Shown here: positions 26,145 through 30,839 of the stretch, in pieces
Position numbering within the stretch: the first letter of the stretch is position 1
How the letters are laid out: each line of letters starts with the position of its first letter
NCBI RefSeq assembly: GCF_001182045.1
Contig: NZ_CVTY01000007.1
Span: 496,001-560,000, forward strand
DNA length: 64,000 nucleotides
Source: Dakarella massiliensis
Lineage (GTDB): Bacteria > Pseudomonadota > Gammaproteobacteria > Burkholderiales > Burkholderiaceae_F
Direction: 5' to 3'
Made by a program: the position numbers and the translations under genes
Notes under the pieces: model-generated
Database searches by the model: none
What the model was told of the DNA's origin: nothing
The model's input: the letters and a program-made list of their open reading frames with translations, nothing else

Positions 26145-26762
26145 CTACCTGTCCGATAGAGAAAAAGCTAATTGTTCAGCCTGCTTTATTTCTTCAAATG
26201 TATTGCAGTTATCAAAGGCAGAAATATCGGGAAAAACAGCCGTCGCAGCTCCGATTTCCTTGAACCATTGCCGAACCCGATGATTGCCGGCAACGTTGTA
26301 GGCCTCAAGCTCAGGAAAGAGGTCTGCCCTGACACAGGCAAACGTGGGCTGAAGCGCCCCATCCGCCTCTGCAATCGCGGCACGGGATCCGGCAGCGTCT
26401 GCTGCGGAAATAAGTTTCTCAGCGAGATCAGACGGGAAAAAAGGGCAGTCACAGGGAACGGTGAAAACCCAGGTTTCATTCCGGGACTTCTCAGGGAGCC
26501 CTGCGATCGCGGCTTCCAGCCCTGCCAGAGGGCCAGGAAAAGAATCTGTACGGTCCGGTATAAGCTCTGTATCTGGAGGAAGGACCTTCCGGTATTCGTC
26601 AAATGACCGATTGGCACTCACCAGAATCCTGTCGATCTGAGGTGAAAGCCGCCGATAGGCGCGAAGTGCCAGCGGCTCTCCCTGAAAAGGAACAAGCCCC
26701 TTATCAGCCCCGCCCAGCCGTGTGGCGCGGCCTCCCGCAAGAATCAATCCAATCCGCATCAT
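26145..26762 (-). CDS. mobA: Molybdenum cofactor guanylyltransferase
   Basis: MobA attaches GMP to molybdopterin to make the guanine dinucleotide form needed by DMSO-reductase-family enzymes. The 205-residue protein begins MMRIGLILAGGRATRLGG, with the nucleotide-binding AGG-x-x-x-R-L-G-G signature and DKGLVPF. FTVPCDCPFF supplies the metal-binding aspartate region. Its ATG overlaps the ppx stop by four bases (ATGA), so it is translationally coupled to ppx. The presence of mobA implies molybdoenzymes elsewhere in the genome, in line with an anaerobic respirer. Confidence 0.92.
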   Translation of the reverse strand: MMRIGLILAGGRATRLGGADKGLVPFQGEPLALRAYRRLSPQIDRILVSANRSFDEYRKVLPPDTELIPDRTDSFPGPLAGLEAAIAGLPEKSRNETWVFTVPCDCPFFPSDLAEKLISAADAAGSRAAIAEADGALQPTFACVRADLFPELEAYNVAGNHRVRQWFKEIGAATAVFPDISAFDNCNTFEEIKQAEQLAFSLSDR

Positions 26763-28516
26763 TTCTTGTGGTGCTTCTTCAGCTTATTTTTGGCTTTCTT
26801 AAGTTTGGACTTCTTTTTTCTATTGGCTTTCTTCCGTCTCCAGGCCTTGATCGCCGTTTCCGGAACACCATCCTTCACTTCACCGCCAATCGGATCAGTC
26901 CACAGAATCTCAATCGGGGAATTAAGCGCCTTAGCGATGCTTTTCGCCATCCGCTCGAGGCAGTCCCGTTCAATCGGGCTTGGAGAATCGGATTCGACCC
27001 GGACAGTCAATCCTTTCTCGCTTCTCTGAAGCGTAACCCCGGTAACCGCCGACCGATGGCTCTTATCCAGACCTACCGCCAGACAAAGGAAAATGCCGGC
27101 CTGCGCCGCCTTTTTCCAGTCATCATCTGACAGACGGATGAAAAAGGGATGCGATTTGCCGTAATACTTGCTGCTATAGATGATCGCCGCGAGGAGGTGC
27201 GTTTCACGCTGCGTAAAGCCGAGGAGATCGGAATCCGCGACGATATAGGCGCTGTGCTGACGCTGCCTGAGATAGGAAATGGAGATGCCGGTTTCCTGAA
27301 GCCAGGAAGCGTATCCCAGCAGCGCCTCCCACTCTTTAGGCAGATCAGTGAGCCCCAGCTCCCGCGCCTGTGAGAACAGACTGCGGGACAAGAAGGACAC
27401 CTGTTTGGCGTGGCGCACGTCAATCTGGAAAGTCTTGGCAAGGCTCTTCACAGCGTGGCCTCGCTGCTTCGACTCCACCGCCCGCCCGGGAATCAGGCCC
27501 TCCGTCTCGAGGTACTGGATGAGAACCCCGTCACGGAGTCCGCGATCCGTAATCGAAATCTGATTGAAACCGAGTTCTTCCATCGCTGTGAGGAAGATCG
27601 CGGCTCCCGGAATAATGACGCCGACACGCTTCTGATTCATGCCGGGAAGCGCTGCGCGCTCGGCAGCTGTCGAGCTGCAGATCTTATCAACAACAGCCCG
27701 GACTTCATCAATCGTGATAACCGTGATATCGGACGACACTGAGGTCTGCTCCGCGGTACGCATAGATAAGGCGAGACTCGCGATCGCGCCGGCCGTTCCG
27801 GAGCTCGCGATCAGCTCACGGGGCTTCTTTGCCAGAAGCCGCTTAAACGGCATTACAGACTTATCGCGGACATAGTCCTGGACCTCACGGAACTTCGCCT
27901 TCGGCACGGCATCGGGAAAATCTTTGAAAAAGAGATCCGCGAGCCGCACACAGCCAACACGAAGTGACTCAGCCGCGAGCAGCTCCCCTTCCCGCGACAC
28001 GGAGAACTCCGTACTGCCGCCTCCGATATCCATATAAGCACGCGGATAGTCGGCTCTGGGAAGGGACGCCTCAACGCCCTTCGTGATCAGACGGGCCTCT
28101 TCCGGCCCTGAAATCACGCTGAAATCGATTCCGGTCTCAGCCTTGACCCGCTCAGTGAATTCCTTTCCGTTTTCCGCCTCGCGGACAGAAGCCGTAGCGA
28201 CCGCCACCACCTTGCTCACGCCGTAGGAGCGGCACGTTCTCGCAAAGGTTTTCAGTACCGAAACCGTGCGCTCAATCGCCTGCGGCTGCAGCGCCTGATT
28301 TTCGAACGCCCCTTCGCCAAGCCGAACCATCGACTTGACGCAGTTCAGAACCTGAATCCTCCCATCTCCGCCGACCTGACTCACCAGAAGCCTGAGCGAG
28401 TTGCTTCCCAGGTCAATCACCGCAACACGCCGGGCCCCCTCAGGAAGAGGCACCTGTGAATCTTGTTCGGACGCATCAGCCGCGTCCGGCAACTCCAGAT
28501 AGGAGGATGGTTTCAT
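26759..28516 (-). CDS. ppx: Exopolyphosphatase / GppA-type phosphatase
   Basis: A 585-residue Ppx/GppA enzyme that trims polyphosphate from its ends, or hydrolyses pppGpp. The actin-like ATPase blocks are clear: VIDLGSNSLRLLV near residue 33, YMDIGGGSTEFSVS and ASSGTAGAIASLAL, followed by an HD-like helical C-terminal region. It lies 16 bases after ppk on the minus strand, the standard ppk-ppx pairing. The last 26 residues are strongly basic (RRKKANRKKKSKLKKAKNK, then LKKHHKK), a tail absent from the E. coli proteins. Ppx versus GppA activity cannot be decided by eye; the ppk partner favours Ppx. Confidence 0.92.
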   Translation of the reverse strand: MKPSSYLELPDAADASEQDSQVPLPEGARRVAVIDLGSNSLRLLVSQVGGDGRIQVLNCVKSMVRLGEGAFENQALQPQAIERTVSVLKTFARTCRSYGVSKVVAVATASVREAENGKEFTERVKAETGIDFSVISGPEEARLITKGVEASLPRADYPRAYMDIGGGSTEFSVSREGELLAAESLRVGCVRLADLFFKDFPDAVPKAKFREVQDYVRDKSVMPFKRLLAKKPRELIASSGTAGAIASLALSMRTAEQTSVSSDITVITIDEVRAVVDKICSSTAAERAALPGMNQKRVGVIIPGAAIFLTAMEELGFNQISITDRGLRDGVLIQYLETEGLIPGRAVESKQRGHAVKSLAKTFQIDVRHAKQVSFLSRSLFSQARELGLTDLPKEWEALLGYASWLQETGISISYLRQRQHSAYIVADSDLLGFTQRETHLLAAIIYSSKYYGKSHPFFIRLSDDDWKKAAQAGIFLCLAVGLDKSHRSAVTGVTLQRSEKGLTVRVESDSPSPIERDCLERMAKSIAKALNSPIEILWTDPIGGEVKDGVPETAIKAWRRKKANRKKKSKLKKAKNKLKKHHKK

Positions 28517-28532
28517 ACTGTTTTCCCTTTGT

Positions 28533-30839
28533 TCAGGACCCGTACTTTTCGCTCATCAGCGCCTGGGCATCAACGAGAGGCTTGCCTTCAGCCGGAAGGA
28601 TGCGTACATACTCATCCCCCTCAAGCTTCCAGGTACGGGCGTTATCCGCAAGCTGAAGCTTCAGCACTTCGTTCGCGATACGCTCCTTCAGGGCTTCATC
28701 GAGCACCGGTGTCACCACTTCGATACGGCGATCGAGGTTGCGGCCCATGAGGTCAGCCGATCCCATGTAGCATAAGCTCTTCTCAGTATCTTCAAGAGGT
28801 CCGAACCAGTACACGCGGGCATGCTCAAGGAACTTGCCGAGAATCGCGCGCACGGTAATGTTGTCAGAAATCCCCTTGATGCCGGTCTTAAGGCAGCAGA
28901 TGCCGCGCACGAGGCAGTCCACCTTGACACCCGCGATCGAGGCTTCATAAAGCAGCCGGATCATATCGGGGTCAACAAGCTGATTGCACTTCAGCACAAT
29001 ACGGCCATTCCCCTCACGCTTATGGCGTTCAATCTCAGCGCGGATAGCGCGCTCGATTCCGCTTCGCATGCAGGTCGGAGAAACAAAGAGCCGGCGATAG
29101 TTATCGCGGACGGCGTATCCGGTCATCACGTTGAAGAGGTCCGTCACATCGGAGCAGATATCCTGCGCAGACGTGAGAAGGCCAAGGTCGGTGTAGTTCT
29201 TCGCGGAGCCGGGGTTGTAGTTGCCGGTGCCGATATGAACGTAGGAGCGGATGCCGCTCGCTTCCTTACGGATCACGAGGCAGAGCTTGGCATGCACTTT
29301 GAGCCCCACGAAGCCGTAAACCACGTTCACGCCCTGGCGCTCCATTTCTTCCGCCCAGTTGATGTTCCGCTCTTCGTCGAAACGGGCCTTCAGTTCCACC
29401 ACGGCGGTAACCTGCTTCCCGCGCTGACGCGCTTCCATCAGCGCCTTCACGATCGGGGAGTTATTGCCCACGCGGTAAAGCGTCATCTTGATACCCAGCA
29501 CTGCGGGGTCCTTGGCCGCCTGCTGCACCAGATCCACGACTGAAGTGAATGTCTGGTAGGGGTGGTAAAGCAGAATGTCGCGCTTCGCGATGTTTTCAAA
29601 GAGCTTCTCAACCGGCTGAGTATCCGGGTTGAAGCTCGCGAAATACGGCGTGTCCTTCAGCTTCGGATAATCCAGATCGTTCAGAGCCATGTAACCCGCA
29701 AAGGCCATCGGACCCTTGACGCTGTAAACCTGGAAGGGCTTCAGCTTCATCTTCTGAATGATGAATTCCGTGATGTTCGAAGGCATACCGTGCTCGGTTT
29801 CAAGGCGAACCACACCGCCCCACTGACGGCGGGTCACGGAGTCACGCACAGCCTCAAGCAGGTCGTCCGCCTCATCCTCTTCAATCTCCACGTCCGTGTT
29901 ACGGGTGATGCGGAACATGCCCTTGCTCACCACCTGGTAGCCCGGGAAAAGCAACGGGAGGAATTCGCCGATGATTTCTTCTGTCGGCACCACATCGATT
30001 CGGCGGTTTCCAAGCGGATCATCCGTCTCCATCTCATCCCCCTCGCTCGTCACAAAGAAGAAACGGGGAATGTTATGCGGCACGCGGAGACGTGCGTAGT
30101 GATGCGTGCCGTCGCGGCTCTGCAGTTCGATCAGGAAGTTGATAGAGACATTCGAGATTCTCGGGAAAGGATGCCCCGGATCGATCGCCTGAGGCGTGAG
30201 AATCGGATAAATCTCCGTCTGGAACCGCGCGAGAAGCGTTCTCTGGGCATCAGGCGACAGCTGATCATAAGAAGCGACCCGGACGCCTGCCTCGGCAAGG
30301 GCGGGCTGCAGTTTCTCGGTCCAGTGAGCAGCCGCTACATCAATAAGCGCCAGCGCCTTTTTGCGAATTTCCGTCAGCTGACGGGCGGGCGTCATCTTGT
30401 CAGGGCCGGAAGAACCGGAACCCGTCTTGTACTGCTTAAAGATGTTCGCCACGCGGACCATGAAAAATTCATCAAGATTCGTATAGAAAATCGAGAGGAA
30501 CTTCACCTGATCGAGCAGAGGGCGGTTCGGCTCAATCGCGGTTTCGAGAACGCGCTTATTGAAGTCGAGCCAGGAAAGCTCACGGTTCGTATAGAGAGCA
30601 GGAGAAGTGAGCGAAGTTACCTTGCGCTGGGCACGCTTCGGGCGGGCTGACGCGGCTGTCTTCGCAGCGCGGGATGCGGCGGCCTTGACCGGGCGGGATG
30701 TGGCAGCTGCAGCAGGCTTCGCGGCTCGGCGGGTGCGCGGACGGCGTGCTGCCGGCTTGGCACTCTTCTCTGCTGTAACAGGGGACTCAGTAACCTGAGC
30801 AGGTGCATTCTGATCGGAAGTTTTCTTGGAAACTGGCAT
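28533..30839 (-). CDS. ppk: Polyphosphate kinase 1
   Basis: PPK1 builds polyphosphate from ATP and can run in reverse. The conserved core begins at about residue 78 (YTNRELSWLDFNKRVLE). The autophosphorylated histidine lies in SYVHIGTGNYNPGSAKNYTD, at about residue 535, and MGSADLMGRNLDRRIE is the second conserved site. The first 75 residues are an Ala/Lys/Arg-rich extension of histone-H1-like composition (for example RPVKAAASRAAKTAASARPK) not present in E. coli PPK. At 768 residues the length is core plus this extension. Transcription runs into ppx, mobA and possibly pgi. Confidence 0.95.
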   Translation of the reverse strand: MPVSKKTSDQNAPAQVTESPVTAEKSAKPAARRPRTRRAAKPAAAATSRPVKAAASRAAKTAASARPKRAQRKVTSLTSPALYTNRELSWLDFNKRVLETAIEPNRPLLDQVKFLSIFYTNLDEFFMVRVANIFKQYKTGSGSSGPDKMTPARQLTEIRKKALALIDVAAAHWTEKLQPALAEAGVRVASYDQLSPDAQRTLLARFQTEIYPILTPQAIDPGHPFPRISNVSINFLIELQSRDGTHHYARLRVPHNIPRFFFVTSEGDEMETDDPLGNRRIDVVPTEEIIGEFLPLLFPGYQVVSKGMFRITRNTDVEIEEDEADDLLEAVRDSVTRRQWGGVVRLETEHGMPSNITEFIIQKMKLKPFQVYSVKGPMAFAGYMALNDLDYPKLKDTPYFASFNPDTQPVEKLFENIAKRDILLYHPYQTFTSVVDLVQQAAKDPAVLGIKMTLYRVGNNSPIVKALMEARQRGKQVTAVVELKARFDEERNINWAEEMERQGVNVVYGFVGLKVHAKLCLVIRKEASGIRSYVHIGTGNYNPGSAKNYTDLGLLTSAQDICSDVTDLFNVMTGYAVRDNYRRLFVSPTCMRSGIERAIRAEIERHKREGNGRIVLKCNQLVDPDMIRLLYEASIAGVKVDCLVRGICCLKTGIKGISDNITVRAILGKFLEHARVYWFGPLEDTEKSLCYMGSADLMGRNLDRRIEVVTPVLDEALKERIANEVLKLQLADNARTWKLEGDEYVRILPAEGKPLVDAQALMSEKYGS

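Follow-up and report, generated by a model that had tools for sequence, protein, structure and literature searches.

What brings proteins to polyphosphate (polyP) granules is an open question, and isoelectric point is reported to be an imperfect predictor (PMC9239181). A locus of the gut bacterium Dakarella massiliensis raises this question for the enzymes of polyP metabolism themselves: a first-pass annotation of the window, the whole 64,000-nucleotide stretch of contig NZ_CVTY01000007.1 that was analysed, had described polycationic tails on both its polyphosphate kinase and the adjacent exopolyphosphatase. Are these tails genuine additions to the enzymes, are they unusual in this genome and its relatives, and what might they bind?

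Results

The ppk-ppx-mobA gene group

The genes are ordered on the minus strand as ppk (polyphosphate kinase 1, PPK1; 28533..30839, 768 aa), then ppx (an exopolyphosphatase of the Ppx/GppA family with domain III; 26759..28516, 585 aa), then mobA (26145..26762), whose start codon overlaps the ppx stop codon as ATGA. The same position of mobA, 3' of ppx, is found in the related loci L032 and L034, one with and one without a Ppx tail; L033 probably shares it, its open reading frame as found starting 45 bases downstream. The PPK1 core is 99% identical to that of Mesosutterella multiformis 4NBBH2 (L032), and the genome itself lies near M. multiformis.

PPK1 scores 792.7 bits against the TIGR03705 cut-off of 465.85 and contains four PP_kinase Pfam domains; H516, K518 and H673, which we take to be its catalytic residues, are invariant in 20 aligned rows. 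Ppx scores 212.7 bits against the PF02541 cut-off of 27, its DIGGGS stretch (D163-S168) is invariant in 10 rows, and it reaches 275.4 bits against the NCBIfam exopolyphosphatase model TIGR03706, below the curated cut-off of 307. Its exopolyphosphatase activity is putative, resting on homology and the neighbouring ppk, and the assignment does not tell Ppx and GppA apart.

Both tails lie outside the catalytic domains

The N-terminal extension of PPK1 (aa 1-78; 30606..30839, minus strand) is rich in Ala, Lys, Arg and Pro, with a histone-H1-like composition and a net charge of +16, and residues 1-80 hold 9 K, 10 R, 21 A and 9 P for that same net charge. Because the first Pfam PPK domain begins at residue 83, and the alignments of the five solved PPK1 sequences found begin at residues 81-83, about 78 residues are extra, close to the roughly 75 originally proposed. 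With the extension, the calculated pI moves from 6.5 (residues 79-768) to 9.1 for the whole protein. In the AlphaFold model (20-row alignment) residues 1-71 are without secondary structure at pLDDT <50. No ATG, GTG or TTG codon separates the start of PPK1 from its conserved core in this copy (L002), so the tail is translated if the core is made from an ordinary start; a mis-called start is ruled out by this and by the presence of the tail in 18-19 of 19 Sutterellaceae-type rows. By eye, the tail holds two KPAA words (aa 28-31 and 41-44), and a long tandem KPAA array of the AlgP/PhaF type is absent from it. The extension is thus confirmed as real, disordered and outside the catalytic domains.

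The C-terminal tail of Ppx (aa 553-585; 26762..26860, minus strand) is of a different make. Its last 26 residues (26762-26839) include 17 K/R and two His, just as had been described, and the last 31 comprise 15 K, 3 R, 2 H and no acidic residue, for a net charge of +18, with 12 K falling within 20 residues. The calculated pI accordingly rises from 7.0 (residues 1-555) to 9.45 for the whole protein. The family domains stop at about residue 508, the closest solved Ppx aligns up to 512, and in the AlphaFold model (10-row alignment) the fold stops at about 541, followed by a low-confidence linker (543-555, pLDDT <50) and a lone helix, also of low confidence (553-584, about 50-70). That this tail, too, is real and outside the catalytic domains is confirmed.

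The Ppx tail codes in frame through an A AAA AAG heptamer (26813-26819, minus strand), presumably a slippery site. Slipping into the -1 frame at this heptamer would soon terminate the protein, dropping most of the tail.

Tails of this kind are rare in the genome

For a control within the same genome, 619 genes were called over 856 kb (35%) by a simple codon-based home-made script, which assigns just 73% of the sampled bases to genes, with the result that small proteins are too few in the sample and some start sites are uncertain. When the 619 are ordered by net charge, PPK1 heads the list for the N-terminal 80 residues (+16, against +14 for the runner-up) and Ppx that for the C-terminal 31 (+18, against +9), as both do again in a smaller control (456 kb, 285 genes); these ranks are partly selected and post hoc because both proteins were picked for their tails. 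A scan for H1-like windows returned three of the 619 proteins, with PPK1 the strongest. By lysine count per 20 residues, Ppx (12) and a PPK2 kinase, PPK2b (10), rank first and second and are the only two with at least 9, followed by three proteins that tie at 8: the C-terminal piece of a second PPK2 (PPK2a), an NlpC/P60 protein and a peptide deformylase. A general proteome habit of growing such tails is ruled out by these ranks and by the background of nine Sutterellaceae genomes, in which seven of 857 genes have at least five lysines in the last 15 residues; the spread over many unrelated proteins that the first-pass annotation had named as fatal to its reading was not seen.

Ten tail-bearing proteins of the genome were given to Pfam, PPK2b and nine others. 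Five of the nine are nucleic-acid proteins (a topoisomerase, a UvrD-type helicase, two HhH-GPD proteins and a PhoH-PIN protein), and four are not (the peptide deformylase, the NlpC/P60 protein, a TonB-like protein and one that matches no family). The NlpC/P60 protein (L203:9243-10205, minus strand) has a Lys/Arg-rich C-terminus ending in RRHGHS and is encoded close to the PPK2a gene. Among the PPK1, PPK2 and Ppx-family genes found in the genome, four of five carry tails; the second Ppx-family protein (306 aa, L187) is without one.

Tails recur on the PPK2 kinases

Both PPK2 kinases of the genome end in charged tails and, having been found later and outside the original finding, provide an unselected replication. 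One of the two genes is interrupted: PPK2a (L229:1036-2445, on C6 of this genome, near 27 kb) holds an in-frame TGA, and its counterpart in the sister genome G002 is an uninterrupted frame of 478 aa. The stop could be real or an assembly error. The tail of PPK2b is a near-neutral PASK stretch, defined as 20 residues with at least 75% D/E/S/K and with a lysine (PMC12345225), in which 18 of 20 residues qualify.

At least five lysines in the last 15 residues are present in 10 of 29 Sutterellaceae PPK2 rows (PPK2a of this genome, with its in-frame stop, excluded), compared with 0 of 21 PPK2 rows from other Burkholderiales and the 7 of 857 background genes; Fisher's p for Sutterellaceae PPK2 against background is 4e-12, a value that overstates the contrast because the rows are related and not independent. 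A looser measure, the maximum number of lysines in any 15 of the last 40 residues, gives 11/29, 4/21 and 22/857 for at least five and 8/29, 3/21 and 9/857 for at least six in the same three groups; PPK2 rows of other Burkholderiales thus score as well, and the Sutterellaceae contrast is weaker by this measure. A density of 9 K per 20 residues is found in 3 of 30 Sutterellaceae PPK2 rows (two near-identical) and, outside this genome, in 2 of 279 Sutterellaceae background genes.

PASK windows occur in 2 of the 619 genes of this genome, PPK2b being the stronger and Ppx not listed, and in none of the 279 genes sampled from eight other Sutterellaceae. They were found in 5 of 51 PPK2 rows, all from Sutterellaceae and two of them near-identical, versus 1 of 897 other genes; the window lies in the C-terminal tail in four of these five rows and is N-terminal in L246. 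The PPK1 tails fail this definition, with 6-12 of 20 residues in 19 rows.

The PPK1 extension is family-wide and probably gained after transfer

PPK1 was found in 60 of the 61 genomes searched, our own included. In a BLAST-based scan, a basic N-extension was defined as a net charge of at least +5 in 20 residues with the nearest start at least 10 codons upstream, and L146, L152, L153 (same family), L168 (order) and L064 (other phyla) were left out as having no usable core or start. By nearest start, such an extension is present in 18/19 Sutterellaceae-type PPK1s (own included), 11/15 from same-family genera with a native-type PPK1, 5/24 from other families of the order, 0/4 from Desulfovibrionaceae-labelled MAGs and 6/68 from other phyla; by farthest start the counts become 19/19, 11/15, 6/24, 1/4 and 11/68. 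The native-type PPK1s of the same-family genera (L142-L159) often have a short, very basic start such as MVRKHHRKHTKRKRSK; this holds for 11 of the 15 rows whose start is usable, three more rows having none.

In a quick-method PPK1 tree of 61 rows, the Sutterellaceae and Desulfovibrionaceae-labelled enzymes fall on one side of a 100% branch and 11 native Burkholderiales PPK1s stand apart, also at 100%; the Sutterellaceae do not form a single group within their side, where forks are supported at 81-93. Sutterellaceae PPK1 was likely acquired horizontally, in one or more transfers, with the Desulfovibrionaceae labels of the MAGs taken as provisional. Since this PPK1 groups with Desulfovibrionaceae-labelled enzymes that are without the tail (by nearest start), the tail was probably gained after transfer. 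This grouping concerns 28533-30839 of the window and L035-L038, with ppx adjacent in some lineages.

The tail keeps its composition and not its sequence. Its K+R content is 21% versus 14% in the core across genome GC of 0.40-0.66 and shows no significant link with GC (Spearman 0.33, p 0.16), whereas its arginine content does track genome GC (Spearman 0.56, p 0.013). In 16 of 19 rows the more basic half of the tail adjoins the catalytic domain.

The Ppx tail is confined to part of Mesosutterella

By the same measure of at least five lysines in the last 15 residues, a Ppx tail is present in 3 of 24 Sutterellaceae Ppx rows (second Ppx-family matches of G002, G004 and G025 excluded), all of them from Mesosutterella, where three of five genomes carry it (our own, G000, together with G002 and G003). 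It is absent from the M. porci pair (G001, G004), from genus g8, whose Ppx is of the same type, and from every native-type Sutterellaceae Ppx examined. These counts rule out the pairing of PPK1 and Ppx tails across Sutterellaceae that the first-pass annotation had put up for checking; of the two, only that of PPK1 runs through the family. A single Lys codon separates the G000 Ppx tail from that of G002. The three genomes with a Ppx tail have PPK2 tails too, and each member of the M. porci pair has a single PPK2 that is without a tail; this co-occurrence is not independent evidence, because the PPK1 tree within Mesosutterella, (G001,G004),(G003,(G000,G002)) with support 83, permits a single event. 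Elsewhere, the Ppx of a Planctomycetia MAG (L051:2147-3883) has an Arg-rich C-terminal end of its own.

Discussion

Our analysis upholds the central observation at this locus, in that the tails are real, additional and rare and mark polyP enzymes, the two PPK2s included, while the family-wide pairing of the PPK1 and Ppx tails has to be given up. We put the probability at about one half that these tails serve as polyanion-binding anchors keeping polyP enzymes on polyP chains or granules. Under such a mechanism, neutral or slightly acidic folded enzymes would acquire a flexible, sequence-independent charged arm; the arm would bind polyP non-covalently, retain PPK1, Ppx and the PPK2s on the granule, and increase the local concentration of chain ends. 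Granule localisation, and any gain in processivity, might be expected by extension from published work on other proteins. The tails fall into two chemistries, the K/H-rich or PASK C-terminal tails of Ppx and PPK2 being good candidates for polyP binding and the R/A-rich, H1-like N-terminal tail of PPK1 being one that could bind polyP, DNA or RNA.

Anchoring to polyP is favoured because lysine-rich stretches (PMC12077175, PMC12345225), PASK stretches (PMC12345225) and histidine repeats (PMC11094774) are all reported to bind polyP, and the Ppx tail unites lysine and histidine, though with only two His. In one published test, the two positives held 9 K per 20 residues and the two negatives 5 and 7 (PMC12077175). 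This density of 9 K in 20, that of the positives for lysine polyphosphate modification (KPM), is reached by Ppx and PPK2b, whereas PPK1 peaks at 4, below the published value. The KPM targets EngA and SrmB of P. aeruginosa, at 9 K in 20, are lysine-dense like Ppx and PPK2b but are described as a ribosome-tied GTPase and an RNA helicase (PMC12077175), whereas the bearers here are polyP enzymes. PASK motifs, for which the PPK2b tail qualifies and the PPK1 tails do not, are reportedly rare in the bacteria used for polyP research (PMC12345225). Another parallel is RNase R of E. coli, whose lysine-rich S1 and basic part is reported to bind polyP; it resembles the present tails in having a lysine-rich C-terminal part with a disordered basic domain, and differs in being a nuclease whose region also serves ribosome and tmRNA contacts (PMC12345225). 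Growth was normal when its lysines were changed, according to the same report, so polyP binding need not mean function (PMC12345225).

In R. eutropha, only polyP kinases of basic pI sit on granules, as reported in PMC9239181; the same source describes the Ppx of R. eutropha and of P. aeruginosa as not granule-associated, and the Ppk1 of P. aeruginosa (pI 7.72) as depleted, making pI an imperfect predictor there. CHAD proteins also bind polyP, but via a folded domain (PMC6537752), and a CHAD search returned no match in this genome and was positive in 6 of 14 control genomes. In the literature search, tailed PPK or Ppx in Sutterellaceae was not found among the matches listed, as judged by titles and abstract starts.

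The tails might instead bind nucleic acid, in the nucleoid or as RNA, which would couple granules or polyP metabolism to the chromosome or ribosome in the way proposed for the H1-like tails of AlgP and PhaF; we regard this as unlikely. AlgP is reported to be needed for even granule spacing via its KPAA domain, peptides of which bind DNA (PMC9239181), and the PPK1 tail resembles in composition, with its two KPAA words, the A/K/P-rich disordered domains of AlgP and PhaF that are linked to granule positioning, while five of the nine other tail bearers are nucleic-acid proteins. The likeness goes no further than composition, however: AlgP and PhaF are separate proteins with long tandem arrays (25 perfect KPAA copies in AlgP; PMC9239181), whereas the PPK1 tail is short, richer in Arg, fused to the synthase and without such an array. 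For DNA binding, the Ppx tail with its K and H and the near-neutral PASK stretch of PPK2b would also be odd; both would suit polyP better. Given that AlgP, H1-like in composition, is needed for granule spacing, a nucleoid link is conceivable for the PPK1 tail only.

Quite unlikely, in our view, is a purely regulatory role in which the charged arm responds to polyP, as product or substrate, by altering activity or processivity, with no part in location. The adjacency of the more basic half of the PPK1 tail to the catalytic domain would fit such a role, as would the extra helix past the linker in the Ppx model, yet the tail sequence is unconserved and both tails are modelled at low confidence, with no sign of a fixed docking site in the predictions. 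Drift of low-complexity sequence, in which lysine or alanine/arginine codon runs build up at tolerant ends without selected function, strikes us as distinctly improbable. Tail lengths and sequences do vary freely, the G000 and G002 Ppx tails are a single Lys codon apart, the M. porci pair does without Ppx and PPK2 tails, and PPK1-tail arginine follows genome GC; but the charged C-terminal ends are rare in the background and nevertheless recur on Ppx and two PPK2 types, and the PPK1 tail persists over the whole GC range, its K+R enriched over the core and not significantly tied to GC.

Returning to anchoring on polyP, a broader version of this reading can be offered only tentatively, and we would sooner doubt than assert it: the family may have put polyP-binding arms on its own PPK1, Ppx and two kinds of PPK2 through repeated growth of sequence-independent K/R/H-rich tails, perhaps replacing granule proteins such as CHAD, with an arm added even to a PPK1 from a Desulfovibrio-like donor without it. 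Because four of five polyP-family genes of this genome carry removable tails, and a sister species is without the Ppx and PPK2 tails, the question of granule targeting becomes directly testable here. Anchoring of this kind would extend polyP binding by lysine-rich and PASK stretches from polyP 'targets' to the enzymes by which the polymer is built and degraded, and, if true, most of the machinery of polyP synthesis and breakdown would be self-anchored to its product.
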